Shown one piece after another: positions 31,203-46,968 of a stretch of 64,000 bases of DNA. Numbering within the stretch: position 1 is the stretch's first letter; each line of letters starts with the position of its first letter. The position numbers were made by a program, and so were the translations under genes. The notes under the pieces were generated by a model. It had not been told where the DNA came from, made no database searches, and saw only the letters and a list, made by a program, of their open reading frames with translations. Source of the stretch: Olleya marilimosa CAM030 (GTDB lineage: Bacteria > Bacteroidota > Bacteroidia > Flavobacteriales > Flavobacteriaceae); assembly GCF_000518485.1 (NCBI RefSeq), contig NZ_JADR01000007.1:124001-188000 (forward strand). Direction: 5' to 3'.

Positions 31203-32456
31203 ATGAAGTATTTATTATTTGTTTTAACCTTTTTAGGAGTTAGCATTTCACACTCACAAAACATTACTGATTTAAAAGTTCAAGGCAATAAAAAGCTAAA
31301 ATCTAGTTTTGTAAAAAAAGTAGCTAATGCTAAAGCAGGTGCAGTATTAGATAGTATCCAATTAGATGAAGATATTAAGTTATTAAAACGATTACCTTCT
31401 GTTTCTCATGCGTATTATCAAGTGTTTCCTTCAGAAAATGGAGATTACAATGTGTTTTATAACATCGAAGAAAATTTTACCATTATACCTTCCTTTAATG
31501 TATATACCTCAAATGATGGCGAGTTTGCTTATAGACTTGGTGTTTATGAGTTTAACCTTTTAGGACAAAATATGATTTTTGGTGGATTTTATCAAAAAGA
31601 TATATTTAGCTCATATGGTATAAATTTTAGAGCACCTTATTTGTTTAGTCGTCAGTTTGGTTTGGCAATTAATCATCAAGATTTACAAACTTTAGAGCCT
31701 GTTTTTTTTGATAATACAACTTCAGATTATAGATACAGAAACAAATCTTTTGAAGTTTTAGGATTGTATCAGCCTAACTTTAATAACCGTTTTGAGTTTG
31801 GTTTTAATTCTTTTTCAGAAGAATATGAATATCAGTCAGGAGCAACAAATCCTGATGTTCCTCAAGCATTAAGTGTTAATAAATTATTGTATAAAGCCAT
31901 ATACGAGTACAATAATCTAGATTACAATTACCAATACGTTTCGGGCTTTAAAAGTCAATTAAATGTGCAATATGTAACGTCTACTAGTGATGATTTACCC
32001 GAATTTTTAATTGGATGGAATGATTTTAATTATTACAAAAGAGTAGGGCAAAGAGGGAATTGGGCAACACGTGTTAGGTTAGGATTGTCTAGTAATGACG
32101 AAACCCCTTTTGCACCATTTTCAGTAGATAATAATTTAAATATAAGAGGTGTTGGTAATACCATTGATAGAGGTACAGGAGCAGTTGTTTTAAATACGGA
32201 ATATAGACATACATTATATGAAAAAGGTTGGTTTGCACTGCAAGGTAATGCGTTTGTAGATGCAGGAAGCTGGCGAAATCCTGGTGGAGATTTAGGAGAT
32301 TTTGGTGATGCTGATAACTTACGAGTATTTCCAGGTGTAGGCTTGCGTTTTATCCACAAATCTATATTTAATGCTATTTTTAGAATAGATTATGGTTACG
32401 GAATTTCAGAAAAGGATGGTCAAGGATTAGTCTTTGGTATAGGACAGTATTTTTAA
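31203..32456 (+). CDS. BamA/Omp85-like outer-membrane protein with POTRA domain
   Basis: A 417-residue protein with a signal peptide (KYLLFVLTFLGVSISHS). A single POTRA-like domain follows (ITDLKVQGNKKLKSSFVKKVANAKAGAVLDSIQLDEDIKLLKRLPSVSHAYYQVF), then an approximately 300-residue barrel. The Omp85 signature LNIRGVGNTIDRG appears in variant form, with a C-terminal RIDYGYGISEKDGQGLVFGIGQYF ending in Phe. It is shorter than BamA and resembles the small bacterial-surface-antigen D15-like or TamA-like proteins. The gene is fused head-to-tail with the GH113-like lipoprotein (TAG then ATG) and is convergent with the TIGR04283 gene (4-bp overlap). Confidence 0.75.
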   Translation: MKYLLFVLTFLGVSISHSQNITDLKVQGNKKLKSSFVKKVANAKAGAVLDSIQLDEDIKLLKRLPSVSHAYYQVFPSENGDYNVFYNIEENFTIIPSFNVYTSNDGEFAYRLGVYEFNLLGQNMIFGGFYQKDIFSSYGINFRAPYLFSRQFGLAINHQDLQTLEPVFFDNTTSDYRYRNKSFEVLGLYQPNFNNRFEFGFNSFSEEYEYQSGATNPDVPQALSVNKLLYKAIYEYNNLDYNYQYVSGFKSQLNVQYVTSTSDDLPEFLIGWNDFNYYKRVGQRGNWATRVRLGLSSNDETPFAPFSVDNNLNIRGVGNTIDRGTGAVVLNTEYRHTLYEKGWFALQGNAFVDAGSWRNPGGDLGDFGDADNLRVFPGVGLRFIHKSIFNAIFRIDYGYGISEKDGQGLVFGIGQYF

Positions 32457-33142
32457 GAAATATGTTTTTTGTAGTACTGGTGTAGTACTTCAGCAGATGC
32501 ACCAAACCATTTTTTTATATAAATGACTAAATAATGGTATTGTAGTGTCCAAACGCCATGTTTTTGATATAACCTAGCTGAGGTTTTAAGCTTATGATTA
32601 ATCACAACAAATTCTTTACGTTTATATAGTTCGTTAATTAAAATATTGTCTTCGTAGATAATATAGTTTTCATCATAACCACCAATATCATTAAATAACG
32701 CTTTGGTTATAAACTGACTTTGATCACCACCACGACTTGCTCGCCAAGAAAACTGAGTTAACCAACTAGTAAAACGTAGCCACCAATGGTTGCTATCAAA
32801 TTGTAATCTAAAACAACCTGCATTATTACCTTTTTTAATTTCATCTAAAATTAACTGGTCATATCTGTTAGGTGGAAAAGAATCTGCATGTAAAAAATAA
32901 AGGATATCTCCTTTTGAAGCTTTGGCACCAAGATTCATTTGTTTAGCACGACCTTTTTCAGAATGTAAAACTTTAATATTTAAACCTAATCCTTGGATAA
33001 TTGAAACGGTATTGTCTGCACTTCCACCATCCACAACAATAATCTCTTGAATAGTATTTAAGGATGCATTATCAATTAAATGATACAATACCTCTGTTAT
33101 ATGCTTCGCTTCGTTTAAAACCGGAATAATAATACTTATCAT
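32453..33142 (-). CDS. TIGR04283-type arsenosugar biosynthesis GT2 glycosyltransferase
   Basis: A 229-residue GT-A protein: ISIIIPVLNEAKHITEVL, IIVVDGGSADNTVSI, SEKGRAKQMNLGAKASKGDILYFLHADSFPP (HADS in the DxD position), FSWRASRGGDQSQFITKALFNDIGGYDE. The HAD and GGDQ motifs are characteristic of TIGR04283, named for occurrence with arsenosugar genes. It is the last gene of the leftward arsenosugar run, 32 bp after the DUF547 lipoprotein, and converges with the BamA-like gene. The acceptor is presumed to be the ribosyl-arsenical; donor unknown. Confidence 0.85.
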   Translation of the reverse strand: MISIIIPVLNEAKHITEVLYHLIDNASLNTIQEIIVVDGGSADNTVSIIQGLGLNIKVLHSEKGRAKQMNLGAKASKGDILYFLHADSFPPNRYDQLILDEIKKGNNAGCFRLQFDSNHWWLRFTSWLTQFSWRASRGGDQSQFITKALFNDIGGYDENYIIYEDNILINELYKRKEFVVINHKLKTSARLYQKHGVWTLQYHYLVIYIKKWFGASAEVLHQYYKKHIS

Positions 33143-33174
33143 GCTGTATTTACGTAAGTTTTATTAGGTTGGTT

Positions 33175-34068
33175 TTAGTCATTTAAGTCCCAGTTGTAAT
33201 CTTTGTAGCTAATTTTAGCTTTCGCTGAAATAGTTACTTCTGTATACTTGTTTAAAAAATCAATTAAACTTCCGTTTTGCTCAAAATCTTTACTAAACCA
33301 TCTAAATATTTTAGATAATTTTAATGTGTTTTTAGAGATTTCATTTCTGTTTGTATCACTTAAAAACTCTTGAGTAGCCAAGGTTAATTGTTGTTCTAAA
33401 TTATCTGCTGTAAATGCAGAGTTTTGTAATTTAGGACAAGAGTAAGAGGCGCAAACAATAGCAAAATGTATGCGTGGTTCGTCCATTTTACGTAGTATTT
33501 TATGCTCTATATCTTCAAGATTATACCATTTGTCACCAAATTGCCATAAGCGATGTTCCCAAGGGTTTTTAATGTCTTTTATGCTTTTTACAGGATAATT
33601 TTTTATAATTAAATCTATTGTTAATGCGTTGTATGCATTAATCCAAAAGGCTAGTTTTTCTTCTTTTGACCAATCTTCTATTGTTTCAGCGTGTGTTAAA
33701 GCATCGATGTAAATAGCAAGAGTAGTTTTATCTTCTCTAAACTTTTTGTAGTCTACGTTTCCTGAGATAGAAACATGCTTTTGTAAAAGCTTATTCCATC
33801 TTTGGTGACTAAAATTTTCTGTTTTTGTTCCCTTAGGAGGCAAAGGTGGCAGAGGTGTTTTTTCTGTAAGTTTTATAGTTTCGGTATGAGAAGAAAGTGT
33901 GTCCTTTTTTACAGTATTGACTATATCTTTTTTACTTTCAGCTTCAGCTTCAGCTATAGCTTCTTTTTTAAAGTTGTTAGTTGCTGTTTGGGTATTTTGT
34001 ACAGTTTGTTTTGTGCTTTTACAAGCGCAAAACAAGACTAATAATGCTAAAGCTAAAAGTTGTTTCAT
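33175..34068 (-). CDS. DUF547 lipoprotein of the arsenosugar run
   Basis: A 297-residue lipoprotein with lipobox FCAC (MKQLLALALLVLFCACKS). A low-complexity Glu/Lys/Thr linker follows (about 20-80), then the DUF547 domain: VDYKKFREDKTTLAIYIDAL, AFWINAYNALTIDLIIKNYPV, HRLWQFGDKWYNLEDIEHKILRKMDEPRIHFAIVCASYSCPKL and IFRWFSKDFEQNG. It is a clear paralogue of the protein at 28504 and shares the NAYN and C-x4/5-C-P features (CASYSCP here, CGAIGCP there). It starts inside the stop region of the sterol-desaturase-family gene (overlap of 4 bp). Function unknown; linkage to arsenosugar genes is by context. Confidence 0.8.
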   Translation of the reverse strand: MKQLLALALLVLFCACKSTKQTVQNTQTATNNFKKEAIAEAEAESKKDIVNTVKKDTLSSHTETIKLTEKTPLPPLPPKGTKTENFSHQRWNKLLQKHVSISGNVDYKKFREDKTTLAIYIDALTHAETIEDWSKEEKLAFWINAYNALTIDLIIKNYPVKSIKDIKNPWEHRLWQFGDKWYNLEDIEHKILRKMDEPRIHFAIVCASYSCPKLQNSAFTADNLEQQLTLATQEFLSDTNRNEISKNTLKLSKIFRWFSKDFEQNGSLIDFLNKYTEVTISAKAKISYKDYNWDLND

Positions 34069-34946
34069 TTTTTTAAAGGATATAATTCTTGACTTATAAA
34101 ATCTTTTGGAAAGTGCTCATCTCCTTCAAAACCTAACTCGATATCACGACCATCATGTGGTATATAATTGGTTTTAAAAATATAATCCCAAATACTTAGG
34201 GTTATCCCAAAGTTAACGCCAAATTTTGTGTGCTCTGGCAAGTGTTTTACATGATGCCAAATGTGCATTTTTGGATTGTTAAATACATATTTTAAAACAC
34301 CATAATCCCAGCCTAAATTGGCATGATTTAAGTGTCCAACAGTGATTGCAAAAAAGTGGACAATAGCAACGTGTTTTGCATCAAAACCACCAATTATGGC
34401 AATAGGTATGTATAGCATGGATTTGTATAAAACCGGTTCCATCCAATGGTAGCGTAAATGGGCTGCAAATCCCATTTCTTTAACACTGTGATGTACTTTG
34501 TGGAAGTTCCATAAAAACTCAAAACGATGTAATAAATTATGAGTTATCCATTGTGTGAAATCTGAAATTATAAAGAAAATAAACAAACCTAACCATAATG
34601 GTAAATTGTCTACATCAAACAGTTGAAAACTTGAAATAGATAAACCAACAACGCCTAAAATATCATCAAAAAAACTTGCAGCAGTATTAGATAAAGCTAT
34701 TAATACAATAAGATTTAGTAAAAAGAAATTAAAAAACATGTAAAACGTATCCAACCAAAAATCTTTACGAAAAATAGATTGCTTTTTACGCCAAGGAAAC
34801 ACAATTTCTAAACCCCAAACAACTAATGATATTATGATTAATCCATAAAAATAGTTGTCCCAATTATTTGGGAAAATAATTTGGTGTTTTAGGTAATTCC
34901 AATAGCCAAAATAGGCGTTTTTTATAATGTCTAGATACTTTTCCAT
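34065..34946 (-). CDS. Fatty acid hydroxylase/sterol desaturase superfamily membrane protein
   Basis: A 293-residue protein with five or six hydrophobic segments and the di-iron histidine clusters in order: WITHNLLHR, FHKVHHSVKEMGFAAHLRYHW and WHHVKHLPEH, plus HFFAITVGHLNH. This matches the HX3-4H/HX2-3HH pattern of the superfamily, which hydroxylates or desaturates lipid chains. In this run it could act on a lipid part of an arsenolipid, but that is speculation. It has a 4-bp overlap with the DUF547 gene and follows arsM by 50 bp. Confidence 0.85.
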   Translation of the reverse strand: MEKYLDIIKNAYFGYWNYLKHQIIFPNNWDNYFYGLIIISLVVWGLEIVFPWRKKQSIFRKDFWLDTFYMFFNFFLLNLIVLIALSNTAASFFDDILGVVGLSISSFQLFDVDNLPLWLGLFIFFIISDFTQWITHNLLHRFEFLWNFHKVHHSVKEMGFAAHLRYHWMEPVLYKSMLYIPIAIIGGFDAKHVAIVHFFAITVGHLNHANLGWDYGVLKYVFNNPKMHIWHHVKHLPEHTKFGVNFGITLSIWDYIFKTNYIPHDGRDIELGFEGDEHFPKDFISQELYPLKK

Positions 34947-34996
34947 AGCTGACTAAATTAGTCATTTACTTGTTTTTTAGTTGTAACAAAGGTTAC

Positions 34997-35965
34997 TTAA
35001 CAGCATCCACCACCATCATAGTGATACGTAGATTTACTAATAAATATGTCATCCCGACCTAAAGCAGCTAAATCTCCTGCTGTTTTATCGCAAATAGCTA
35101 TAGGTTGATTTTTAAGTAAAATATGCCCTTTTTTATCATCAAAAAAATCTTGATCACCATAGTATATTGCAGCTTTACCTGTAAAAACACATGGTCCATC
35201 TGCTGGCATTGGATCTTTAATGGCTGCTATTTCTATAGATTCTATATAGATTAATTCATCTGTAGGATAATTTTTAGGGTCTAAAATACGATAAGGTTTT
35301 CTGGCTCTAATTTCTATTGTACCAAAACCTGCGTCAGTTAATGCTTTTACATAGTCGGCAATTGGTAAACTTCCGCTTAAGCATAAAGCTCTTAATCTAT
35401 CATCGTTACGTAATGTGTCATTCATTTCCTGCTCGCAAGTAGGATCGCTCATAACAAGTTTGCCATGTGGTTTTAAAACGCGATACATTTCGGCAATAGC
35501 CTTTTTTAAATCCTCTGCCTTAAAGATATTAAATAAACAATTTTGTGCTGCTACATCAATTGAGTTATCTGCTACGTTAAGATTTAAAGCATCTCCTTTT
35601 ACAAGATCTACAAACTCACTTTTAAACCAATCGTTTTGTGCTTCAGCTTCAATAAAATTTTTACGTGATGCTTCTAGCATTTCATCTACCACATCAACAC
35701 CAATAACACCACCTTTTTGACGATTAAAATAAGCGAATTGTAATAATTCCATACCACCACCAACACCAACATATAACATTTTTGGATTGTTAGTTAAATC
35801 TCTAGCATTTACAGTGCTACCACAACCGTAGTTCATTTCCTGCATGATTTTAGGAATCTTAAGACCTGGTAATTCCCATATAGGATTAGTGGTGCAGCAT
35901 AAGCCAACATCTGGTGTTAAAGCAGCTTCTTTATATAAGTTGTTTGTAGCGTCTAAATAGCTCAT
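34997..35965 (-). CDS. arsM: Arsenite S-adenosylmethionine methyltransferase (arsenosugar type)
   Basis: A 322-residue cytoplasmic enzyme. SAM-binding motif I is VGVGGGMELLQF (66-77), followed by GVDVVDEMLEASRKN, KGDALNL and AAQNCLFNIFKAEDLKKAIAEMYRVLKPHGKLVMSDP. Candidate arsenic-binding cysteines are Cys23/Cys24 in DVGLCCTT, Cys48 in NYGCGST and the C-terminal GGGCC. The DVGLCCT opening is characteristic of the ArsM subgroup found with ArsS. It methylates As(III) stepwise, giving the dimethylated arsenical used to build arsenosugars. Its neighbours in the run (ArsS, PNP and the TIGR0428x glycosyltransferases) support this over a detoxification-only role. Confidence 0.9.
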   Translation of the reverse strand: MSYLDATNNLYKEAALTPDVGLCCTTNPIWELPGLKIPKIMQEMNYGCGSTVNARDLTNNPKMLYVGVGGGMELLQFAYFNRQKGGVIGVDVVDEMLEASRKNFIEAEAQNDWFKSEFVDLVKGDALNLNVADNSIDVAAQNCLFNIFKAEDLKKAIAEMYRVLKPHGKLVMSDPTCEQEMNDTLRNDDRLRALCLSGSLPIADYVKALTDAGFGTIEIRARKPYRILDPKNYPTDELIYIESIEIAAIKDPMPADGPCVFTGKAAIYYGDQDFFDDKKGHILLKNQPIAICDKTAGDLAALGRDDIFISKSTYHYDGGGCC

Positions 35966-36015: not shown

Positions 36016-36828
36016 TTAAAGTGTTTCTATCAACGCTTTAAATAATGTAATCATATTAGGTTCTGCTTGATTAGCCATAGCTATAATCTCACCAATATCT
36101 ACAGGTTTTAGATTATTTGGGTCGCATTCATCTGTTAAAACTGACACTGCAGCCACTTTTAAATTTAAATGATTAGCAACAATAACTTCAGGTACAGTAC
36201 TCATCCCAACTGCATCTGCTCCAATAATTTTAAGCATGCGGTATTCTGCTCTAGTTTCTAGTTGCGGTCCGACAACACTAGCATAGACACCTTCGTGTAA
36301 TTTTATATTATTAGCTTTTGCTATAGCTTTAATTTTTGCATTAATGTCTAAATCATAAGGTGCACTCATATCTGCAAAACGCTCGCCAAGCTCAGCAACT
36401 CCTTTAAAAGCTAGAGGTGAACTTCCTTGTAGATTAATATGATCGTCAATAAGCATTAATTCACCTTTCTTAAAGTCTAAATTAATAGCTCCAGAAGCAT
36501 TAGATACCAATAATGTTTTGATACCCAATTTTTCCATAATTCTAACTGGGTACGTAACATCTTGCAAGCTATAACCTTCATAAACATGAAAACGACCTTG
36601 CATTACAATTACTTTTTTTCCAGCTAAGATTCCGTAAATTAATTTTCCTTTATGAAACTCGACAGTAGCAGTTGGGAAATTAGGAATGTGATTATAACTC
36701 ACCTCTTGAATAACTTCAAGTTCATCCGTTAATTTTCCTAATCCAGTTCCTAGAATAATACCAACTTCTGGTTGATCAAATCCTTTTTCTTTTAGGTATT
36801 CTACGGTTTTATTTATTTGCTTTATCAT
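36016..36828 (-). CDS. Purine nucleoside phosphorylase
   Basis: A 270-residue PNP-I family enzyme. The ATG at 36828 is preferred to the TTG at 36834. Motifs: GIILGTGLGKLTDEL (phosphate site), VEFHKGKLIYG, MQGRFHVYEGYS, LLVSNASGAIN, YASVVGPQLETRAEYRML, DAVGMSTVPEVIVANH and VLTDECDP. It cleaves purine nucleosides with phosphate. Within this run its likely substrate is the 5'-deoxyadenosyl-arsenical made by ArsS, releasing adenine; that is inference. The start overlaps the upstream DUF2064 gene by 20 bp. Confidence 0.9.
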   Translation of the reverse strand: MIKQINKTVEYLKEKGFDQPEVGIILGTGLGKLTDELEVIQEVSYNHIPNFPTATVEFHKGKLIYGILAGKKVIVMQGRFHVYEGYSLQDVTYPVRIMEKLGIKTLLVSNASGAINLDFKKGELMLIDDHINLQGSSPLAFKGVAELGERFADMSAPYDLDINAKIKAIAKANNIKLHEGVYASVVGPQLETRAEYRMLKIIGADAVGMSTVPEVIVANHLNLKVAAVSVLTDECDPNNLKPVDIGEIIAMANQAEPNMITLFKALIETL

Positions 36829-37429
36829 GTTCAATTAAGGCTTTTAAGGTTTGGTTGTTGGACATATCTTCGTATGTGTCAACATCATTTAATGGTTCTA
36901 ACAAAAATACGTTTTCCTTAACTAAATCTTTCATGGTGTCTTCAAAAACTGTTTCGGTTCCCCAAGATTTATTTTCAAAAACAGCAGGATGCAATTGTTT
37001 CATTCCTAAAAGATAATAGCCACCATCTATAGCAGGTCCAATTACAGCATCATTATTATCTAAAGCATCAAAAGCTTGATTAATATGTTCGGGTTTTAGA
37101 TCATATAAATCGCTACCAACAATAATTATTTTAGTGTAGCCAGTATCAAAACCAGTTTTAAAGGCATTAGACATTCTTATGCCTAAGTGGTCTCCAACTT
37201 GTTGATGTTTTTGATATATGTCAGGATTCCAAAGGTCGTTTTCTCTAATTTTAACCGAGTAATATACTGCCTTGTCACAGTCTATTTGTTGTAAAACGCT
37301 TTCAGTATGTTCTAATAATTTTTTATAAATCGCTAAAGCGGAAATATTGCCAATAGTATTAGCTAATCGTGTTTTTACTTTTCCTAATTCAGGGTTTCTG
37401 GTAAAGGTTATTACTAGATTTTTATACAT
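36809..37429 (-). CDS. TIGR04282-type arsenosugar biosynthesis glycosyltransferase (DUF2064)
   Basis: A 206-residue GT-A-like protein: VITFTRNPELGKVKTRLANTIG (pyrophosphorylase-like start), DHLGIRMSNAFKTGF, IIVGSDLYDLKPEHI, AVIGPAIDGGYYLLGM and LNDVDTYED. The GSD (metal site) and DGGYYLLG motifs define TIGR04282/DUF2064. A more divergent DUF2064 paralogue lies at 44795. It lies 6 bp after the rhodanese gene. It is likely a nucleotidyl- or glycosyltransferase acting on the arsenoribose, together with the TIGR04283 protein. Confidence 0.85.
   Translation of the reverse strand: MYKNLVITFTRNPELGKVKTRLANTIGNISALAIYKKLLEHTESVLQQIDCDKAVYYSVKIRENDLWNPDIYQKHQQVGDHLGIRMSNAFKTGFDTGYTKIIIVGSDLYDLKPEHINQAFDALDNNDAVIGPAIDGGYYLLGMKQLHPAVFENKSWGTETVFEDTMKDLVKENVFLLEPLNDVDTYEDMSNNQTLKALIEHDKANK
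37331..37344. repeat. CGCTTTCGCGGAAA-family repeat (variant CGCTAAAGCGGAAA)
   Basis: A 14-mer identical, on the other strand, to the copy at 1460-1473. Other members: 24803, 25338, 28550, 29235, 33218, 44888, 45489 and 46427. They occur inside genes as well as between them. Confidence 0.55.
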
Positions 37430-37435: not shown

Positions 37436-37948
37436 TTATTTTTTTGAAGAAGTTGTTTCAAATACTTTTATACCTTTAGTTAACCATTTGCTCCAAGCTT
37501 CATTAAAAGTATGTATTTGTTCTGTTTCATTGTCTTCGGAATCTACTACAGTAAAATCATTGTTTTTCCACTCGAAAATACCACCATAAAGATTAAAGAC
37601 ATTAGTGTAGCCTTCGTCTTTTAGTTTTTTAGCAATGTTTTCCGATCGTATTCCAATTGAGCAATAGACTACTATTTTTTGGTCTTTATTAGTGTATTTT
37701 TCTGTAACTTTTTTAATGTCAAAAAAATCGTAACCTACTAAAGTTGCATTTTTAATGTGACTGACTTCAAACTCTTTAGGTTCTCTTGCATCTAGGATAA
37801 TAGCGTCGGTTTTTGGCATTGCTAATTCCTGCACAGTTATATAAGGAACACTATTTTTATTGTGTTTTTTAAGTAATTCATCTAGTGTGTCTTGTGCTAT
37901 GCTTTGTGCAGCAAAAAGACTTATAAATAAAAATAATACTGTTTTCAT
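37436..37948 (-). CDS. Secreted rhodanese-like protein
   Basis: A 170-residue protein with a signal peptide, MKTVLFLFISLFAAQSIAQ, starting at ATG 37948. The longer frame from 37990 would overlap the upstream gene and add a non-signal prefix. The rhodanese domain has AIILDAREPKEFEVSHIKNATLVGYDFFD and the active-site loop VVYCSIGIRSENIAKKL (Cys-Ser-Ile-Gly-Ile-Arg), then LYGGIFEWKNND. Sulfurtransferases of this kind act on thiosulfate or persulfide. In this periplasmic setting it might supply sulfur for thio-arsenicals or act as a redox protein; both are inference. Confidence 0.85.
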   Translation of the reverse strand: MKTVLFLFISLFAAQSIAQDTLDELLKKHNKNSVPYITVQELAMPKTDAIILDAREPKEFEVSHIKNATLVGYDFFDIKKVTEKYTNKDQKIVVYCSIGIRSENIAKKLKDEGYTNVFNLYGGIFEWKNNDFTVVDSEDNETEQIHTFNEAWSKWLTKGIKVFETTSSKK

Positions 37949-37952
37949 AATG

Positions 37953-38780
37953 TTATAAATTAATTCCGAAACCTTGTAATCCACTTTCAATAGCTGGTAA
38001 AATCTCGGTATTATCCCAAATGCCAGTCACTATTGTTCTTGCGTATTCTTCTGGTAATAAACCGTTTTTCATTAAACTATTAGTTAGCTTGTAATTATAG
38101 TCGAGCGTATGATGCGTAAATTTCATTTCACCATTAATGTCTTCCAAAATGGCATACCAAACTTGTGGTGATCCATCATTAGCAGGCATACCGATTACAC
38201 CTGGATTTAGCCATAATTTGTTGTCTTGCTCATGACTAAAAGGTAATCCACAATGTCCAGCAACAATAACATCACTTTTGGTTGCGTCTATTGTTTTGGC
38301 CTTAATATTCCAGTCTGTAGATTTAAATACAAATTCTGATACATTAAAGTAATCACCATGGACAACGGTTACTTTTTTATTAGCATAATTAAAAGTGATA
38401 TGATCCGGAAACGTTGCTAAATACGCTATCGAGTTTTTGCTTAGTTTGCTTTGTGCATAAGGATACCAAAGTTTAGAAAACCCATCACATCGTGAGCCTT
38501 CTGTAAAATCGCATCCACAATCTGCTTCACCTTCTATAAGTTGTATTTCTACATTTCCTAAAATACTTTTAGCATTCCAAATTTTTAAAAGCTGAACCGT
38601 TTCTTCTGGTTGTGCGCAATAGCCAACAACGTCTCCTGTGCAAATACAATTTTCTGGAGCTATATGTTGTTGTTCAGCTACAGCTTTAAGTGCTTCTAAG
38701 GCTTGAAGATTACTGTAAACGCCTCCAAAAAGTAAGACTTTACCAGTTAATGTGCCTATGTTATTTATTGTTTTATCCAT
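37953..38780 (-). CDS. Metallophosphoesterase-like protein with altered first metal motif
   Basis: A 275-residue protein of calcineurin-like fold. Motif II GDVVGY (49-54), motif III GNVE (75-78), VVHGDYF and GHCGLP (in the place of GHTH) are recognisable, but motif I, normally DxHGN, reads FGGVYSN (18-24), lacking the Asp and His metal ligands. It also has an unusual CGCDF/RCDGF cysteine cluster near 88-100 that might bind metal or arsenic. It has no signal peptide. It overlaps the symporter gene by 16 bp and the rhodanese gene follows after 4 bp. It is probably either a divergent phosphatase or a non-catalytic binder in the arsenosugar pathway. Confidence 0.7.
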   Translation of the reverse strand: MDKTINNIGTLTGKVLLFGGVYSNLQALEALKAVAEQQHIAPENCICTGDVVGYCAQPEETVQLLKIWNAKSILGNVEIQLIEGEADCGCDFTEGSRCDGFSKLWYPYAQSKLSKNSIAYLATFPDHITFNYANKKVTVVHGDYFNVSEFVFKSTDWNIKAKTIDATKSDVIVAGHCGLPFSHEQDNKLWLNPGVIGMPANDGSPQVWYAILEDINGEMKFTHHTLDYNYKLTNSLMKNGLLPEEYARTIVTGIWDNTEILPAIESGLQGFGINL

Positions 38781-40099
38781 CTAGGAACGAAATATAAAAG
38801 GTTACAACTAAAAATACCCCAAACATTTACCCAAAGTAAATCGGCATAACGACCCTTTGTAAAAATTAAAGCTTCTGGGAAAACTTTGAAGACTAATAAA
38901 AACCCAAAAAGGATACCACAACCAATACTTAAATAAAAGCTTATTTTTGGCACTTTATAATTCCAGAACACAAATATTGGTGTTAAACCAATGACCATAG
39001 TTCCGGATATTGTGGTGGCAGAGAGGATTTCGGCATTAAAAAATATAGGAATTGTACCAAGTACAGCAATGGCTACCATTGCTAATCTACCAAATGTTAG
39101 GCTTTTGCCTAATCCCAAATCGACTGCCAACAATTTTGAAAACGATGAAAACGTCGAATCCAAGGTTGAAGCTGCTGAGGTAATCATAATAAAATTAATG
39201 ACTAATAATACCACAACTCCAAATGCTTTTCCAACCTCTACAGCTGCTTGTCCTTTTAAACCTTGAGTTTGTGCATACACACCAATTAAACTAAAAAGCA
39301 CAATGCAAATGGCACCTAATAAGCTAGCCCATAAAAAGCTTTTTCTAGTCACTTTTGGCGAACTAATAAAAGCTCTGTCAGTTAGCACAGGATCATGAAA
39401 AGGGTAGCTAAAGGATTGTATAATGGCTGCAAAAAAGAGGTTTAAACCTAGTTCAAAACTCCAAGTGCCTGAAGTTACAATGTCTTTTGTGCTAAAGTTT
39501 TCAACTGAAAAAATTGTATATAAAATAATGATTAATAGTACAGAAAATAAAACCATTTGTATCACGTCTGTAAATATCGAACTGCTTAATCCACCTTTAA
39601 TAGCGTAGCTAAGGGTTAATACTGTAAATACTATTATGGCTGTGTAATAGCTAGCACTTCCTGTTTCACCAAAGTAAGAGCCAATAACCATGGTATTACT
39701 CCAAACCTCATTAAATAATCTAATGATGATTAAAAACGTGAAGACTGCAACCGCTTTTTTGCCAAATTTACTAGTTAAAAAGTCATGGATACTTGTAAAG
39801 CCACCTTTGGTACGTAATTGATAAATTAGTAATCCAGCAACCGCAAAACTTAGATAATATCCAGCATAAGCGACACCTCCAACTAGACCAAAATCTAGGC
39901 CTAAATTGGCAGCATTAGTAATACTTTTGGCAAAAATCCAAGAGATTATTAAACTACCAGTTAGTACTAAAACATTTGGTGATTTTTTGTTGTGATTAGC
40001 TTTAAAAAAAGATGCAGTGGTTTTTGCATAAGGAGATAAAGCAAACAAGATTAAACTTGAAGCGATCACTAAAATCCATTGCCAAATTTCTGTACTCAT
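38765..40099 (-). CDS. Sodium:solute symporter family protein
   Basis: A 444-residue protein with about thirteen hydrophobic segments. Family signatures: GVAYAGYYLSFAVAGLLIYQLRTKGGFTSIHDFLTSKFGKKA, SYAIKGGLSSSIFTDVIQMVLF and ITSAASTLDSTFSSFSKLLAVD (the Na2-site region). It transports an organic solute with sodium across the inner membrane. It lies 3 bp after the SusD gene and overlaps the metallophosphoesterase gene, so it is part of the arsenosugar run. It may import what the SusC/SusD pair brings into the periplasm. Confidence 0.85.
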   Translation of the reverse strand: MSTEIWQWILVIASSLILFALSPYAKTTASFFKANHNKKSPNVLVLTGSLIISWIFAKSITNAANLGLDFGLVGGVAYAGYYLSFAVAGLLIYQLRTKGGFTSIHDFLTSKFGKKAVAVFTFLIIIRLFNEVWSNTMVIGSYFGETGSASYYTAIIVFTVLTLSYAIKGGLSSSIFTDVIQMVLFSVLLIIILYTIFSVENFSTKDIVTSGTWSFELGLNLFFAAIIQSFSYPFHDPVLTDRAFISSPKVTRKSFLWASLLGAICIVLFSLIGVYAQTQGLKGQAAVEVGKAFGVVVLLVINFIMITSAASTLDSTFSSFSKLLAVDLGLGKSLTFGRLAMVAIAVLGTIPIFFNAEILSATTISGTMVIGLTPIFVFWNYKVPKISFYLSIGCGILFGFLLVFKVFPEALIFTKGRYADLLWVNVWGIFSCNLLYFVPRWIKQ

Positions 40100-40102: not shown

Positions 40103-41548
40103 TTAGTTTTGGTCCCACCAAACTGGGAAGTTAATATCATTACCATTAGTAGCACTTGCTGCTTGATTATAGTTTTCGGCATTTAAAGCTTCTTCTTCTG
40201 CAGGATAAGGCATTCTTACAGGTATTAATCCGTTATTTAAACTGGCTGATATTGTATTAAACTCAGGGAAACCTGTGCGTCTGTATTCTACCCAACCTTC
40301 ATAACCATTTATAAGATTAGCAATCCATTTTTGGGTGATAATTTGTTGTAAAGGTGTAGTTCCAGGTGCATTATAAGCAGCATTGGTTGTTAGGTAAGTT
40401 GTAGGTAAATCGGTTTGCCAATACTCAAAAGCTTGTGCGACTCCTGTTTCATATAAATCTTGTGCATTGGCACTAATTAACCCTTTTAAAGCAGCTTCAG
40501 CTAATATAAAATGAACTTCCCAAGAGGTAATAAAATTAGCATCCAAAACCGAAGTGTCTTCTCTAAAAGCACTTCCTGCTAAAGAGTAGTCTGCTAAAGC
40601 TATTGATGTTGATGAAGCATCAATACCATTGATTAAACCATTAAACTGATTGGAAGACGAATTTTCAAAAGGTTTGAAAAACGTGCTTAGTCTATCATCA
40701 TTTAGGTCAATTAAAATATTTTCCATCGTTTCTGATAAGATAAAATTATTGAAATCTCCTACTCTTAATTGAGCTAATCTAAAGCTGTTTGGATCTGTGT
40801 TAGTAAAGTTGAATACAGCATTTTCAGCTGTAGCTGAAATGTAATTACCTTCATCATATAAGGTTTGTAATTCAGTTGAAACATTCACTTGATCGGAAAT
40901 ACGAAGCAAATATTTCAATTTTAAACTATTTGCAAATTTTACCCAAGCGTCTAAATCACCATTAAATAAAATATCTCCTTCCAACGGAATCGCTAAATCG
41001 TAATTTGTAATAGCTTCAATCCCTTTATCAAGATTATCTAATATCCCGTTTTCATTTAAATAAATAGATTCTTGACTGTCATAACTTGGTGTAACGGTTC
41101 CATTAATTCCATTAAAGGCTTCAAAATAGGGAACATCACCAAACAAATCTGTTAATCCTGCTGCCATATATGCTTTTAAAATTAAAGCAGGACCTTCATA
41201 AACCTTAAAGGTTGAGGTGGTTTTGGATTGTGTTAATATAATTTCGTTATCACGTAAATTGGTGTAAAATATTGGCCAAGGATTTCCACCTAATTGCGGC
41301 GATTTTAAGGCGTGTCTGTCAAATAAATTGAAATCTAAAGCAGTTCTGTGTTGCGATAATAAATCTCCAGCAACAAAACCTTCATAACTCATTTGTTCTC
41401 CAAAATCATAAATAACCTGACGCAGCAACAAACTTGGTTGTACAGTGTTTGGTGCGTTGGGATTAGTATTAATGTCTTCAAAGTCTTTTGTGCAACTTGT
41501 TGTTAAAACAAGCGTGAAAAAACTTAATATATATAATGTGTTTTTCAT
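40103..41548 (-). CDS. SusD/RagB-like outer-membrane lipoprotein
   Basis: A 481-residue lipoprotein, lipobox LTTSC near residue 19, then SusD-family features: DINTNPNAPNTVQPSLLLRQVIYDF, DLLSQHRT, NLRDNEIIL, the TPR-like helices (YEGPALILKAYMAAGLTDLFGDVPYFEAF) and the C-terminal GYEGWVEYRRTGFPEF with the proline-rich VRMPYPAEEEALN. This matches the SusD-like/RagB group, the surface ligand-binding lid of a TonB-dependent importer. It is 10 bp after the SusC gene. Since the run contains no glycan-degrading enzyme, its ligand is probably a small molecule or nucleoside-type compound, not starch. Confidence 0.9.
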   Translation of the reverse strand: MKNTLYILSFFTLVLTTSCTKDFEDINTNPNAPNTVQPSLLLRQVIYDFGEQMSYEGFVAGDLLSQHRTALDFNLFDRHALKSPQLGGNPWPIFYTNLRDNEIILTQSKTTSTFKVYEGPALILKAYMAAGLTDLFGDVPYFEAFNGINGTVTPSYDSQESIYLNENGILDNLDKGIEAITNYDLAIPLEGDILFNGDLDAWVKFANSLKLKYLLRISDQVNVSTELQTLYDEGNYISATAENAVFNFTNTDPNSFRLAQLRVGDFNNFILSETMENILIDLNDDRLSTFFKPFENSSSNQFNGLINGIDASSTSIALADYSLAGSAFREDTSVLDANFITSWEVHFILAEAALKGLISANAQDLYETGVAQAFEYWQTDLPTTYLTTNAAYNAPGTTPLQQIITQKWIANLINGYEGWVEYRRTGFPEFNTISASLNNGLIPVRMPYPAEEEALNAENYNQAASATNGNDINFPVWWDQN

Positions 41549-41558: not shown

Positions 41559-44500
41559 TTAAAAATTTAAACTTGCTTTTAATCCAAAACTGCGTGATGT
41601 GGCATAACTCATGTCTTCCACACCACTAACAAAACCGTTACCTTGTACTGCTAATTGTTCTGGATCAAAGTGTGGGTTTTCAGTAATAACAAATAGGTTT
41701 TTACCAATTAAAGACACTGCAATGTCTCCACCTTCTTTTAAGCCTAAAAAGCCTTCTTTTAATTTAAAATTATAGCCAACAGAAAATTGTCTTAGTTTTA
41801 AGTAAGACGCGTCGTAGACGTTATTTTCTTCGTGGTTTCTGTCGTAAAACTGTCTGTAATAACTTTCAGCTGTAATAGCTACAGTGTTTGGTGTTCCAGA
41901 TTGTGTGACACCTTCTGCAATAATACCATCTTCTGGTCTGTATTCTGTTTCTGCTAATTGTCCTCCAACATTACCCAAAGCGCTTGTTCTAGATACAATT
42001 TCACCACCTTGTCTCCAATCAAACAAAAAGCTAGCAGACCAGTTTTTATAGTTAAAATCGTTGCTCCAACCTAAAGTGAAATCTGGATTATAGTTTCCTA
42101 ATTTTTGTAGGTTGTTATCTGCAATGTAGTTTCCGTTGTCATCAATTATAAATTGACCATTTTCATTTTTTAAATATCCAGTACCATAAATGTCTCCAAT
42201 CTGTCCACCTTCTTCAACTTGAAACCAAACCGTTTGATTGGCACTATCGTAAATTCGGCTATAAGCCAAAGTTAAACGACCGTCTGCTTGCGGTAACTCT
42301 TCAATAGTTGCTTTGTTTTTAGCAAAATTGAAGGTTGTATTCCATTTAAAATTAGACGTTTTAATAGGAGTGAAGCCAGCGATAATTTCGACACCAGTCG
42401 ATTTTACTTTTCCACCATTAACGACTTGTTGATCATAACCTGACGATATTGGTATTGGTAAAGAAATTATTTGATCTTTAGTTATGGCATTATAATAGGT
42501 AAAGTCAAAACGAATACGATCTTTTAAGAAACGTAAATCTGCACCAAATTCGTAATTAGTTGTGCTTTCTGGTTTTAATTCAGAATTAGGAATAAAATCC
42601 TGATTACTAAAAGTAGGTTGACTATTAAAAGGTGTTTGCGATACAAAAGCTCCGGAAGTTTGATACGGATTAGTATCGTTACCAACCTGTGCCACACTGG
42701 CTCTTAGTTTTGCAAAAGATACAGCTTCAGGAAGCTCTGTAACATTAGATAAAATAAAACTGGCTGAAGCCGAAGGATAGAAAAAAGAAGTACCATCCAC
42801 CGAAAAAGGTGTTGCTAAAGCACTAGACCAATCATTCCGACCAGTAATGTCTAAAAATAGAAAATCTTTATAGCCTAATTTTGCAACTCCATAAAAGGAA
42901 TTGATACGTTTTTTAGATTCAAATTGAAACACTTCAATAGGTGATGCAGCATTATTTAAATTAAAAATTCCAGGTTGTGCCAAACTAACCGTTTGTGATT
43001 GCTTGGTTGATGCTGTTTGGTTTAATCGGTTTCCACCAATAGATACATCTAGTTTAAAATCGCCAAACGAATTATTGTAGTTTAATAGAAAATCGGTGTT
43101 AACTTCTCTGTAAAACACATCGTGTTCTGCGTAAGCACCATTTTGAAAACGATTACTAGAATACGCACGTTTTAGTATTCTTTTTTCAGACGAATAATCC
43201 ATTCCTGTTCTAACCTGAAGATTTAAATGGTCTGTAAATTTATGTGTTATAGCTATGTTTCCGAAGACACGATCACGATTAAAACTATTTGTGTTTTCGT
43301 ATAAAATAAAATAAGGATTATCAAAAAACGTGTAGTTAAAACTATATTGTTGTACACCTTCTAAACCTGGTTGCCAATAGTTTTTTAAGCTATTAATATC
43401 AAGGCTTCGTGGTCCCCAAGCTACCAAGCTGTAATTTACATTTTCGCTACCATAACCGTTAGATGGTCTGTTATCACTTGTAGAATTTGTGTAAGATAAT
43501 GAAGTTGAAATAGTCGTTTTTTCTGTGGGCTCAAAATTTAGTTTTGTAGCAACCGTTTGTCGGTCTAAATTCACACCAGGAATAATAGATTCGCTTCTTA
43601 AATCGGTAAACGATAATCTATAATCACCAGTATCAAAACCATTAGAAATAGCTATATTGTTTATTGTAGTAATTCCTGTTTGATAAAAATCTTTTAAGTT
43701 ATCTGGATTAGACTGAAATAAGGTTGGTGTAATAGCGTCACCAGAATATAAGGCAGTATCTCCACCACGTACAATAGTTCCGTTTGCTAATGTCACAGGA
43801 CTATTAAATTGCGGAAGGTAAATGCCAGCATCCAATTGTGGTCCCCAAGAATAGGTAATGTTATCATTAATTCCGCCACCAAGACCATCAACGTATTCAA
43901 ATTGTCCAGAATTACCTTGACCGTAACTATTCTGAAATTCTGGTAGTCTAAAGGCATTGTCAACAAATAACGACGTGTTAATACTAATCCCTAAGCCTTT
44001 TGTTTTTTTACCATCTTTGGTTTTAATAACAATCACTCCGTTGGATGCACGCGTACCATACAAAGCAGCAGCACTTGGACCTTTTAAAACAGAAACTTCT
44101 TCTATATCGTCTGCATTAACTTCCATAGCTCCATTTCCAAAATCTATTTCCTGAAAACCAGCAGCAGCTTCGTTTGTAAAGTTAAAAACAGTATTGTTGT
44201 TAATTGGGACACCATCCACAATAAACAAAGGATTGTTGTTAGAAAAAGAGGCTTCACCACGAATCGTAATTTTTGAAGACGATCCAACACCTGTCGCACC
44301 TTGAGATACTGTTACACCTGCAAGTTTACCGGCCAAATTATCAATAAAGTTAACTGTTTTAACTTCGGTTAAACTTTCACTTTTTAAGGATTGTACTACA
44401 TATCCTAGCTCTTTAGTGTCGCGTTCAAGACCCAAAGCTGTAATAACCACTTCGTCTAAATTTGAGGTGTCCTCTTCCAAAACAACATTAATAACCGATT

Positions 44501-44750
44501 GATTATTAATTGCGATTTGTTGTGTTTTGTACCCAATAAATGAGAATGTTAAGTGTTCCGTTTCGTTAGAAATTATAATAGAATAGTCACCAAACCCATT
44601 GGTTATTGTTCCATTATTTTGGTCTGCCAAAATATTAACATACGCTAAAGTTTGACCATCTTGGGCACTTGTTACAGTACCAGTAATTGTAGTTTGTGCA
44701 ACGCTAAATGTACAAACAAGAAGCAAAGCACATAGGTAAATGTGTTTCAT
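41559..44750 (-). CDS. SusC/RagA-like TonB-dependent transporter
   Basis: A 1063-residue protein with a signal peptide (KHIYLCALLLVCTFSVAQ). A carboxypeptidase-like CarbopepD_reg domain follows (ITGTVTSAQDGQTLAYVNILADQNNGTITNGFGDYSI), then the plug with the SusC signature (LDEVVITALGLERDTKELGYVVQSL; NLAGKLAGVTVSQG; IRGEASFSNNNPLFIVDGVPI; EVSVLKGPSAAALYGTRASNGVI) and a barrel ending in YATSRSFGLKASLNF. It uses TonB energy to import a ligand with the adjacent SusD protein. It lies between arsenosugar genes in the same orientation, 44 bp after the second DUF2064 gene. Confidence 0.92.
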   Translation of the reverse strand: MKHIYLCALLLVCTFSVAQTTITGTVTSAQDGQTLAYVNILADQNNGTITNGFGDYSIIISNETEHLTFSFIGYKTQQIAINNQSVINVVLEEDTSNLDEVVITALGLERDTKELGYVVQSLKSESLTEVKTVNFIDNLAGKLAGVTVSQGATGVGSSSKITIRGEASFSNNNPLFIVDGVPINNNTVFNFTNEAAAGFQEIDFGNGAMEVNADDIEEVSVLKGPSAAALYGTRASNGVIVIKTKDGKKTKGLGISINTSLFVDNAFRLPEFQNSYGQGNSGQFEYVDGLGGGINDNITYSWGPQLDAGIYLPQFNSPVTLANGTIVRGGDTALYSGDAITPTLFQSNPDNLKDFYQTGITTINNIAISNGFDTGDYRLSFTDLRSESIIPGVNLDRQTVATKLNFEPTEKTTISTSLSYTNSTSDNRPSNGYGSENVNYSLVAWGPRSLDINSLKNYWQPGLEGVQQYSFNYTFFDNPYFILYENTNSFNRDRVFGNIAITHKFTDHLNLQVRTGMDYSSEKRILKRAYSSNRFQNGAYAEHDVFYREVNTDFLLNYNNSFGDFKLDVSIGGNRLNQTASTKQSQTVSLAQPGIFNLNNAASPIEVFQFESKKRINSFYGVAKLGYKDFLFLDITGRNDWSSALATPFSVDGTSFFYPSASASFILSNVTELPEAVSFAKLRASVAQVGNDTNPYQTSGAFVSQTPFNSQPTFSNQDFIPNSELKPESTTNYEFGADLRFLKDRIRFDFTYYNAITKDQIISLPIPISSGYDQQVVNGGKVKSTGVEIIAGFTPIKTSNFKWNTTFNFAKNKATIEELPQADGRLTLAYSRIYDSANQTVWFQVEEGGQIGDIYGTGYLKNENGQFIIDDNGNYIADNNLQKLGNYNPDFTLGWSNDFNYKNWSASFLFDWRQGGEIVSRTSALGNVGGQLAETEYRPEDGIIAEGVTQSGTPNTVAITAESYYRQFYDRNHEENNVYDASYLKLRQFSVGYNFKLKEGFLGLKEGGDIAVSLIGKNLFVITENPHFDPEQLAVQGNGFVSGVEDMSYATSRSFGLKASLNF

Positions 44751-44794
44751 TAAATAATAAAGATTAGTTTCAGTGATTTTTTGGCTAAAAGCCT

Positions 44795-45481
44795 TTAGTT
44801 TTTAACGGAAACTAATGTAGGAGATCCTTTATTAAAAGGTAATTGTTGAGGTAATAATAGGTTTTGTAATGCTATGTGTTTAAGTATCGCTTTCGCTGAA
44901 AAACATAGCTGTAGTATTATTGATTTTAGTGCTTTTGAAACCGTTTTATAACTATTTAATATAGCTTTTAAGTCTTTAACCGAATCGATGTCGTCTAAGG
45001 TTTCTAGAGTACTAAAAGTGATTTTAGTAGTAGATAAGTATTGTAAGGTTGAGTTTTTTAAAGCTGAAGTTTGCCAAGGTAAATTTTTAAATTGCTTAGC
45101 ATTAAACAGGTTTTTGGTTAAACCCATTAAATAAAAACCACCATCTTTTGATGGTCCAAAAACCAACTGATTGTTGTTAAGTTTTTGGTAAGCATCATTT
45201 ATATGTTTTGTTTTTAAGTGTGGTGTGTCGTTTCCAATGGAAATAACGTTAGTAAAACCTTTATCAAAAACCAATTGAATAGCATTTGTAAAACGATCAC
45301 CAAAGTTTAAGCCTTGTTGCTGTGCTTCGGTAAAATGAAAAAATGGTAATCCTGTTTTTTTAACTTTTCTAATCGTATCGTTTGTTAGAGTTTCAAACAA
45401 CTGACTATCCGAAAAAGATTTGCGTTTAGCGTCCTCTTTAGCAGAATTAGAAAAAATTAAAATGGCAGTTTTAGTTTTCAT
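44795..45481 (-). CDS. DUF2064 family protein, second copy
   Basis: A 228-residue protein. It shares SIGNDTPHLKTKHINDAY (in place of GSD), LVFGPSKDGGFYLMGL and LDDIDSVKDL with the DUF2064/TIGR04282 family, and the start KTAILIFSNSAKEDAKRK resembles the family N-terminus in a more divergent form. The last 40 residues, from about 185, are not family-like. It lies 39 bp after arsS. It might be a second arsenoribose transferase of different specificity. A repeat of the CGCTTTCGCGGAAA family encodes its FSAKAI segment. Confidence 0.7.
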   Translation of the reverse strand: MKTKTAILIFSNSAKEDAKRKSFSDSQLFETLTNDTIRKVKKTGLPFFHFTEAQQQGLNFGDRFTNAIQLVFDKGFTNVISIGNDTPHLKTKHINDAYQKLNNNQLVFGPSKDGGFYLMGLTKNLFNAKQFKNLPWQTSALKNSTLQYLSTTKITFSTLETLDDIDSVKDLKAILNSYKTVSKALKSIILQLCFSAKAILKHIALQNLLLPQQLPFNKGSPTLVSVKN

Positions 45482-45520
45482 TTACAGATTTCCGCGACAG
45501 CGAAAAAAGTTAGTTTTATA

Positions 45521-46576
45521 TTATGCAACAACACCTTGACAGCTGCTTCCTGCGCCTGCAGTGCAACCATAACAATGTTGAGAAATTACTATGTTTCTAC
45601 CTTCAAGTAATTCGGTTTTATAGTCTGATATATGTTTAGATTTACTGTTTACAGGTAATTCTAGCATTTGGTTAAAATCGCAATCAAATAAATAACCATC
45701 CCAACTTACAGACAATGTATTGGTGCACATGACGTTGGCAACTGCAGCAGGATTATAAGCCTCTACTAATGAGTACATGTAGTCTTCGTAGTTTTCTGAA
45801 GCTATTAAAAAGTCCAAAAATCTAGCAATTGGTAGATTAGTAATCGCAAATAAGTTATGAAACTGAATGCTGAAATCTTCCATCAATGCTTTTTTGAAAT
45901 CTTTTTCCATAGCAGATTGGTCTCCTGGTAAAAAGGCACCTGAAGGATTGTAAACTAAGTTCAGTTTTAAATCGCTTCCTGGCATACCATAACCAACAGC
46001 ATTTAATTCCTGCAAGGCTTTAATAGACATGTCAAATACACCTTCACCACGTTGTTTATCTGTTTTACCACGAGTCCAGTGTGGCATTGAGCTTACAACA
46101 TGAATGTTGTGTTTTTTGAAAAACTGCGGTAAATCGTAATATTTTTTGTTAGCACGAATAATGGTTAAGTTAGAACGCACGATAAAGTCTTTAATTCCAA
46201 TTTTTGAAGCTTCTTCTACAAACCATCTAAAATTTGGGTTCATTTCTGGAGCACCTCCTGTTAAATCTAAAGTATGTGCGCCTGTAGTTTTAATAACATC
46301 CAAGATTTGTTGCATCGTCTCTTGGGTCATAATTTCCTTTCGGTCAGGACCTGCATCTACGTGACAATGCTCACACACTTGATTACACATGTATCCAACG
46401 TTAATTTGTAGTATTTCTAATGTTTTCGCTTTAAGCGGAAATTGACTAGTTTCAGAAATTTTGTTTTTAAAAGTCGGTAATTCGCCATCAGCAAAGATTC
46501 CGCCAGATAAGATTTCTAGTTGTTTATTGCTTTTTGCTAAATCGCTACCTAACTTTTTAAGGGATTTTGTTGCCAT
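45521..46576 (-). CDS. arsS: Radical SAM protein of arsenosugar biosynthesis
   Basis: A 351-residue protein. The radical SAM cluster motif CNQVCEHC (Cys64, Cys68, Cys71) lies in ILQINVGYMCNQVCEHCHVDAGPDRKE, followed by LDLTGGAPEMNPNFRWFV and NLVYNPSGAFLPG. The C-terminal CTNTLSVSWDGYLFDCDFNQML and CYGCTAGAGSSCQG carry auxiliary cluster/substrate cysteines. In many relatives one C-terminal Cys is selenocysteine; here the frame has Cys and no in-frame TGA. By family it adds 5'-deoxyadenosyl to a dimethylated arsenical. It is preceded by the AhpD-like gene (56-bp gap) and followed by the divergent DUF2064 gene. Confidence 0.92.
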   Translation of the reverse strand: MATKSLKKLGSDLAKSNKQLEILSGGIFADGELPTFKNKISETSQFPLKAKTLEILQINVGYMCNQVCEHCHVDAGPDRKEIMTQETMQQILDVIKTTGAHTLDLTGGAPEMNPNFRWFVEEASKIGIKDFIVRSNLTIIRANKKYYDLPQFFKKHNIHVVSSMPHWTRGKTDKQRGEGVFDMSIKALQELNAVGYGMPGSDLKLNLVYNPSGAFLPGDQSAMEKDFKKALMEDFSIQFHNLFAITNLPIARFLDFLIASENYEDYMYSLVEAYNPAAVANVMCTNTLSVSWDGYLFDCDFNQMLELPVNSKSKHISDYKTELLEGRNIVISQHCYGCTAGAGSSCQGVVA

Positions 46577-46632
46577 TAATCAATTTGTCTTGTTTGTAAT
46601 TCTTACGTAAGTAAACTTATTTTGGTTTTATA

Positions 46633-46968
46633 TTAACCGTCTAATTTGTTTACTTTATTCATCATTTGCACACCATGTACCAATGTTGCACCACTTTTTA
46701 TGGCAGCACCAACGTGTATGGCTTCCATCATTTCTTCTTTTGTAACGCCACGTTGTAAACCGTCTTTAGTATAGGCGTCTATGCAATATGGACATTGCTC
46801 TGTGTGTGCAACTGCTAATGCTATTAGTGATTTTTCGCGAGCTGTTAACGCACCTTCTTCAAATACTTTTCCGTAATAGTCAAAAAACTTGTTACCAAGT
46901 TCTTCATTCCATTCTGTAATTTTTCCGAATTTTCTTAGGTCTGCTGGATCGTAATATGTTTTTGCCAT
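46633..46968 (-). CDS. Arsenosugar-associated AhpD/carboxymuconolactone decarboxylase-like protein
   Basis: A 111-residue protein of the AhpD-like superfamily: EKSLIALAVAHTEQCPYCIDAY has the CxxC redox pair (Cys59, Cys62) with the neighbouring His55 and Glu57 as in AhpD; AIHVGAAIKSGATLVHGV completes the fold. NCBI-type annotation names this group the arsenosugar biosynthesis-associated peroxidase-like protein. It is the promoter-proximal gene of the leftward run, with a -7 element at 47031-47038. It may cycle arsenic or thiols by its redox cysteines. Confidence 0.88.
   Translation of the reverse strand: MAKTYYDPADLRKFGKITEWNEELGNKFFDYYGKVFEEGALTAREKSLIALAVAHTEQCPYCIDAYTKDGLQRGVTKEEMMEAIHVGAAIKSGATLVHGVQMMNKVNKLDG

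Follow-up and report, generated by a model that had tools for sequence, protein, structure and literature searches.

A SusC/SusD-symporter cassette within an arsenosugar biosynthesis cluster of Olleya marilimosa: a candidate route for organoarsenical uptake

Arsenosugar synthesis is best compared with the pathway of the cyanobacterium Synechocystis PCC 6803, in which ArsS, acting with ArsM, has been described to carry out the first steps (PMC8552651). Seaweeds are rich in arsenosugars and arsenolipids (PMC6656958). Here we consider a stretch of 64,000 nucleotides from the flavobacterium Olleya marilimosa CAM030 (contig NZ_JADR01000007.1, positions 124,001 to 188,000), hereafter ‘the window’, in which 14 open reading frames (ORFs) lie together on the minus strand at 32453–46968 (Table 1). 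Set among arsenosugar genes in this run are five genes, termed the cassette, which encode a DUF2064/GT-A-like protein (GT4282b), a SusC/RagA TonB-dependent transporter, a SusD-like lipoprotein, a Na+/solute symporter (SSS) and a metallophosphoesterase-like protein (MPE). Going by their families, a SusCD pair combined with an inner-membrane Na+ symporter would make up a complete inward route. We give an about even chance to the reading that the 14 genes form an arsenosugar biosynthesis cluster with an inserted SusCD–SSS import cassette, which would feed ArsS with scavenged organoarsenical. Whether microbes take up complex organic arsenic on purpose, and by what route, is to our knowledge an open question.

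The pathway is defined by curated models: ArsM, ArsS, TIGR04282, TIGR04283 and TIGR04169 all score above their cut-offs, as does purine nucleoside phosphorylase (PNP), and ArsS carries the radical SAM motif CxxxCxxC. The original prediction, made from the letters of the window, had named ArsM, ArsS, PNP and TIGR0428x proteins as the arsenosugar genes and had placed a SusC, a SusD lipoprotein and a Na+ symporter inside the run. The models confirm these assignments, with a SusD-family lipoprotein encoded 10 bp from a SusC that exceeds both of its model cut-offs, and with the symporter recognized through PF00474 as a divergent member of its family. For the TIGR0428x proteins the assignment stood for TIGR04282 (36809–37429) and TIGR04283 (32453–33142) but not for the second TIGR0428x-like gene (44795–45481), GT4282b, which falls below the TIGR04282 cut-off. 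This protein lacks the N-terminal GKVKTRL stretch of its paralogue, is matched by the TIGR04282 profile only from position 70 on and is not counted as a TIGR04282 member; its GT-A-like fold is kept (predicted local distance difference test (pLDDT) 82.6 for the model). Model scans found no glycan-degrading family among the 14 genes, so that the run is not a polysaccharide utilization locus; a GH113-family gene (30201–31202) lies outside the run on the opposite strand. The close packing of 14 same-strand genes, with gaps of at most 56 bp and several overlaps, is borne out by the ORF coordinates, the intergenic distances from first to last gene being 56, 39, 44, 10, 3, −16, −38, 6, −26, 50, 50, −4 and 32 bp (range −38 to 56 bp), where the overlaps at PNP and rhodanese depend on TTG starts. 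Transcription of the 14 genes as one unit is plausible, and is put no higher because promoter-like and terminator-like sites occur at chance frequency: a sigma-70-type scan returned 66 promoter-like sites (67.9 in shuffles) and 10 terminator-like sites (8.2 in shuffles), which is uninformative, and a Bacteroidetes-type promoter pattern had no match in the run and occurred at chance frequency in the window.

The cassette was delimited by comparison of ArsS loci. ArsS scored above cut-off in 28 of 296 genomes sampled from the order, and ~40 kb around ArsS was fetched from each of the other 27 and its genes laid out. The order GT4282b–SusC–SusD–SSS–MPE is the same in eight of the 28 loci, and the set was not found within the ~40 kb around ArsS in the remaining 20. 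It follows ArsS in G000, G191, G064, G188 and G218, and precedes (AhpD-)ArsS in G271, G286 and G201. Since only eight of the 28 ArsS loci hold the cassette, and at varying positions, it is an accessory module, both real and conserved; the idea that arsenosugar synthesis generally includes the SusCD block was rejected, as 20 of the 28 ArsS genomes do without it. GT4282b precedes SusC in all eight loci. Five more cassette genomes belong to the same class but lie outside the order; of these, G575 has GT4282b before SusC, and in the other four (G454, G465, G360 and G619) it was not seen beside SusC. The four-gene core SusC–SusD–SSS–MPE is therefore taken as the wider unit. In a public collection, 335 stretches encode a relative of the symporter; the best 80 were examined, and the 70 of these longer than 20 kb are termed full-length. 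ArsS, AhpD, SSS, MPE, PNP and TIGR04282 are each present in 70/70 full-length loci, SusC and SusD in 69/70 and rhodanese in 68/70. The closest public locus is from Olleya namhaensis, with a symporter 95% identical to that of the window, although records very near the window may have been left out. The run as a whole is not one conserved unit, since ArsM is found in 24, TIGR04283 in 54 and the fatty-acid hydroxylase in 57 of the full-length loci; the linkage of the importer genes to arsM and arsS that had been predicted thus holds for arsS but in only 24/70 loci for arsM. Two cassette-free loci, L043 (G072) and L044 (G206), have GT4282b followed by a 1036 aa protein which by eye resembles a TonB-dependent receptor and not SusC. 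In L041 (G191) a 221 aa protein, aquaglyceroporin-like by eye, lies between PNP and ArsM.

Co-occurrence of the cassette with ArsS was examined using the symporter as a marker. An SSS profile (alignment A1), with ArsS no part of the query, was searched genome-wide at a threshold of 1e-60 in the order sample and of 1e-40 in a sample of 395 genomes of the phylum. It matched eight of the 296 order genomes, ArsS being present in 8/8 (background 28/296), and nine of the 395 phylum genomes, ArsS being present in 9/9 (background 156/395); the two samples together give 13 distinct genomes, all of which carry ArsS. The hypergeometric probabilities (2e-9 for the order and 2e-4 for the phylum, relatedness ignored) are only descriptive, given the kinship of the genomes and a profile derived from cassettes linked to ArsS. 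In 9/13 genomes the block adjoins ArsS (and AhpD) without a break and shares its strand; G465 has it on the strand opposite to ArsS, with 1.4 kb between ArsS and the nearer end of the block. Three genomes (G360, G575 and G619) carry SusC–SusD–SSS–MPE together but away from their ArsS gene, so the co-occurrence does not stem from linkage alone. The co-conservation of SusC/SusD with arsenosugar genes, proposed earlier as a check, therefore holds in that the symporter is found only in ArsS genomes, but not in the reverse direction, given the 20 ArsS genomes without a cassette. The tie of the cassette to the arsenosugar pathway is strong.

This tie bears on a reading that we regard as improbable, namely that SusCD and SSS import an ordinary nutrient and have been kept by inheritance of an old operon, with no functional link to arsenic. 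Shared ancestry does contribute, as the 80 public loci are mostly from Flavobacteriaceae and have a similar gene order, and two of them (L134 and L126) lack GT4282b–SusC–SusD yet keep ArsS, SSS and MPE. Simple inheritance is nevertheless at odds with a cassette whose position relative to ArsS varies and which is unlinked in 3/13 genomes, all 13 of which hold ArsS, and with the fusion of MPE to AhpD (see below), which ties the cassette to the pathway. A further difficulty is that SusC and SusD of G188 and G218 are far more divergent than the adjoining SSS and MPE, a pattern read as selection to keep SusCD. L134 (8457–12132) and L126 (3749–7526, a shorter stretch) represent a natural variant without the outer-membrane part, in which SSS–MPE directly follow ArsS.

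The last protein of the cassette, MPE, departs from the enzymes that it resembles. Its predicted model (pLDDT 95.4) matches 3rqz, SapH (3qfm/3qfn) and related phosphoesterases in fold (Foldseek E ~1e-15). Compared with 3rqz, G20 and Y22 stand in place of the DxH aspartate and histidine, V77 replaces the GNHD histidine and G178 the second histidine of GHxH; D50, N76, H141 and H176 are retained, which presumably leaves one metal site. These substitutions, together with Cys55, 88, 90 and 98, are invariant in 36/36 chosen cassette sequences, and the motif set of a catalytic calcineurin-like phosphoesterase (DxH, GD, GNHD/E, HG and GHxH) is incomplete in MPE. An MPE profile matched six genomes of a 66-genome order sample: the two cassette genomes scored 507 and 493 bits, the other four 73–89 bits. 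Three of these four weaker matches, from the cassette-free genomes G002, G040 and G031, proved on reading to have intact canonical motifs, and on this sequence comparison MPE is a derived protein that has lost them and carries a cysteine set. We infer that MPE may bind arsenic. In G271, G201 and G454 (G454 being a member of a different order within the class) the MPE frame runs stop-free through the whole AhpD-like protein as an in-frame fusion, which joins a cassette protein to the neighbour of ArsS. The block stands directly before AhpD/ArsS in these three genomes and likewise, unfused, in G286; the fusion may therefore have come about through loss of the stop between adjacent genes.

Without ArsM, a cell that has ArsS, PNP and the transferases would need dimethylarsenic from elsewhere. 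The distribution of ArsM was surveyed with the two curated types, NF038099 (arsenosugar type) and the PRK11873 type (profile NF008823). In the order sample, 4/8 cassette genomes (G201, G286, G188 and G218) gave no match to either ArsM type, compared with 1/20 cassette-free ArsS genomes (G150; Fisher 0.015), 17 of which have NF038099 over the cut-off and two (G276 and G291) the PRK11873 type. As for the five cassette genomes of the class from outside the order, G619 has both types and G465 the PRK11873 type over the cut-off, G360 has a match of 188 bits that is below the cut-off, G575 only a weak match of 61 bits and G454 none. Of the 46 full-length public loci without a local ArsM, the genomes of 45 (all except L139) were searched, and none has NF038099 above the cut-off; three (L146, L147 and L154) have another ArsM-like match and 42 have none, so that no ArsM match was found in 42/69 tested full-length public cassette genomes. 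Olleya namhaensis DSM 28881 and Winogradskyella strains are examples of cassette strains with no ArsM match. The 45 genomes, whose completeness is not stated, comprise 12 loci picked for having no local ArsM, which were also run with NF008823, and 33 searched with low-threshold NF038099 only. Lack of ArsM is thus enriched with the cassette within the class; it does not by itself require the cassette. A ~240 aa gene between TIGR04282 and PNP (16/80 loci) was considered as an ArsM substitute and dismissed, as by eye its product has a signal-peptide-like start and is not methyltransferase-like. G674 (L118) has an intact ArsM and, next to it, an additional copy broken by internal stops.

On these grounds a mechanism can be sketched. 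SusD and SusC would bind the ligand and carry it through the outer membrane, powered by TonB, and the Na+-coupled SSS would take the ligand, or a product of it, through the inner membrane, the direction of transport and the energy source being those expected of these families. MPE would then handle the ligand and hand it on to AhpD, its neighbour or fusion partner, from which it would reach ArsS, a role for the cysteines and a delivery step suggested by the genomic context. The ligand would supply the dimethylarsenic group, making ArsM dispensable. Its most likely identity, at about even confidence and judged from context, is an organoarsenical, either an arsenosugar or another methylated arsenical, for example of algal origin; this is drawn from the ArsM-less clusters, the complete inward route and the abundance of arsenosugars in seaweeds. 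The fuller proposal, in which SusCD–SSS takes up an organoarsenical, ArsM-less flavobacteria build arsenosugars from scavenged methylated arsenic, and MPE is a former phosphoesterase turned cysteine-based arsenic handler that hands over to AhpD and ArsS, is tentative and falls short of an even chance.

Several observations weigh against organoarsenical uptake. ArsM-bearing cassette genomes, that of the window included, need no imported dimethyl arsenical, and 20 of the 28 ArsS genomes in the order live without the cassette. In the phylum sample 59/147 cassette-free ArsS genomes (57/127 outside the class and 2/20 inside it), with at most five candidates scored per genome, likewise have no ArsM match; absence of ArsM thus has other explanations, and this control weakens it as proof of import. 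The public loci are not independent, as they were taken as the top 80 of 335 by similarity and come mainly from a few related genera, and the symporter profile derives from ArsS-linked cassettes. The closest solved SusC by sequence, BT_2264 (5fq6, E 5e-121), belongs to a peptide-bound pair, Bt2263/64 being mentioned with peptide in PMC7782687. The nearest solved SusD is a different protein (5j5u, E 1e-35), with BT_2263 ranking last of 26. The closest cassette-free SusC (44–46% identical, among 14 genomes searched), with its SusD, is found in G291 (L234, 2668–19643), where ars operon-like genes precede the pair and phosphodiesterase-, permease- and glutamine-synthetase-like genes and two dehydrogenases (aldehyde/alcohol) follow it, an arrangement that by eye reads like aminoalcohol use. 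The peptide-associated BT_2264 pair and the G291 neighbourhood leave room for other ligands.

The same neighbourhood in G291 favours the main rival, which we consider unlikely: that the cassette imports a non-arsenical building block (an aglycone or acceptor, a nucleoside or a phosphorylated head group) which receives the arsenoribose. It would also suit the DUF2064/TIGR04282-like protein with which the cassette starts and the phosphoesterase fold of MPE, which is near that of the Ap4A hydrolase SapH, yet it leaves unexplained both the frequent lack of an ArsM match in cassette genomes and the invariant cysteines and lost motifs of MPE. Less probable still is that organoarsenicals scavenged through the cassette are degraded, either to yield carbon or to detoxify them, the ‘biosynthesis’ enzymes serving remodelling or salvage and not synthesis de novo. 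Clusters without ArsM do retain ArsS, PNP and TIGR04282, and many hosts of the public loci belong to marine genera; however, pathway direction cannot be read from the genes, and ArsS is described as biosynthetic in the cyanobacterium (PMC8552651). The transporter itself diverges in two genomes. In G188 and G218, SSS and MPE are 56–60% identical to those of the window, SusC 42–43% and SusD 38–39%; in the five genomes of the class outside the order, SusC and SusD are 56–63% identical. SusCD of G188 and G218 may have been replaced or have evolved fast, and either would suit a switch in ligand variant. In a SusC tree long branches join G188/G218 with G291, and few outside SusC proteins are present; the tree does not decide between replacement and fast evolution, and for these reasons no origin is claimed for the divergent pair.

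Table 1. The 14 genes of the run in the window; model scores are given as bits/cut-off (curated models, Pfam).
Feature	Coordinates	Strand	Evidence
AhpD-like protein, arsenosugar-associated	46633..46968	-	TIGR04169, 194/120; CxxC Cys59/Cys62
ArsS radical SAM enzyme	45521..46576	-	TIGR04167, 439/300; CxxxCxxC Cys64/68/71
GT4282b, DUF2064/GT-A-like (cassette gene 1)	44795..45481	-	TIGR04282, 111.5/134 (below cut-off)
SusC/RagA TonB-dependent transporter (cassette gene 2)	41559..44750	-	TIGR04056, 611/368; TIGR04057, 56.7/46.2
SusD-like lipoprotein (cassette gene 3)	40103..41548	-	SusD_2 PF12771, 303.5/27; Cys19 in lipobox-like context (by eye)
Divergent Na+/solute symporter, SSS (cassette gene 4)	38765..40099	-	PF00474, 31.8/22.8; TIGR00813, 44.8/184 (below cut-off)
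MPE, metallophosphoesterase-like, calcineurin-like fold (cassette gene 5)	37953..38780	-	degenerate metal site; invariant Cys55, 88, 90, 98
Rhodanese	37436..37990	-	NF045521, 215/145
TIGR04282 arsenosugar glycosyltransferase-family protein	36809..37429	-	212/134
Purine nucleoside phosphorylase (PNP)	36016..36834	-	NF006054, 349/218
ArsM, arsenosugar type	34997..35965	-	NF038099, 566/400
Fatty-acid hydroxylase family protein	34065..34946	-	PF04116; resembles OlsE, below OlsE cut-off
DUF547 protein	33175..34068	-	
TIGR04283 arsenosugar glycosyltransferase	32453..33142	-	236/182

The surroundings of the run vary between loci. A 15th same-strand gene, encoding an esterase (47056–47952), lies 87 bp upstream, and an esterase-like gene is present in only 6/70 related full-length loci. 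XdhC and a molybdenum hydroxylase (molybdenum cofactor-binding and FAD/2Fe-2S subunits) adjoin the cluster at 49281–50060 and 52086–55812, XdhC being found in 17/70 full-length loci. At the other end, plus-strand genes at 29266–32456, whose matches are MetA-pathway-like, to GH113 and, weakly, to POTRA, point towards the cluster end; GH113 is present in 38/70 and a POTRA-like gene in 28/70 full-length loci. A second run on the minus strand (20846–28304) encodes a pyridine-nucleotide oxidoreductase, a Fer4 protein, a MORN_2 protein, two family-2 glycosyltransferases and a 454 aa protein. Within ~20 kb on each side of ArsS in the 27 other order loci, the oxidoreductase is found in eight, Fer4 and each glycosyltransferase in five and the 454 aa protein in four.

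If organoarsenical uptake is correct, arsenosugars or their precursors would be exchanged between algae and bacteria via a dedicated receptor, arsenosugar pathways could run on scavenged arsenic, and the ligands of SusCD transporters would extend to a class other than glycans and peptides. We know of no organoarsenical as a SusCD ligand class, and titles and abstract openings in the open-licence PMC literature, a weak basis for a negative, gave no link of SusC/SusD or TonB-dependent transporters to arsenosugar genes. Judged by its sequences, the cassette looks like an assembly of known parts arranged as an importer tied to the arsenosugar pathway. The locus shares with the Synechocystis ArsM–ArsS pathway (PMC8552651) both of these enzymes, recognized by curated models, and has PNP and TIGR04282/TIGR04283 genes; it differs in the five-gene import cassette within the run and in the 42/69 public cassette genomes without an ArsM match. 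The arsinothricin cluster arsQML is likewise an organoarsenical pathway with a radical SAM enzyme, ArsM and a transporter, but there ArsQ is a proposed exporter (PMC8552651), whereas here transport would run from the outer membrane to the cytoplasm. With described SusC/SusD importers the cassette has in common both subunits, their order, and the plug and signature domains; unlike them it has no glycanase or peptidase family and is paired with SSS, an MPE-fold protein and arsenosugar genes. Finally, MPE has the overall fold of SapH-type metallophosphoesterases (3qfm/3qfn and 3rqz); in contrast to them, its DxH motif has lost D and H, GNHD the H and GHxH the second H, and it carries four invariant cysteines.

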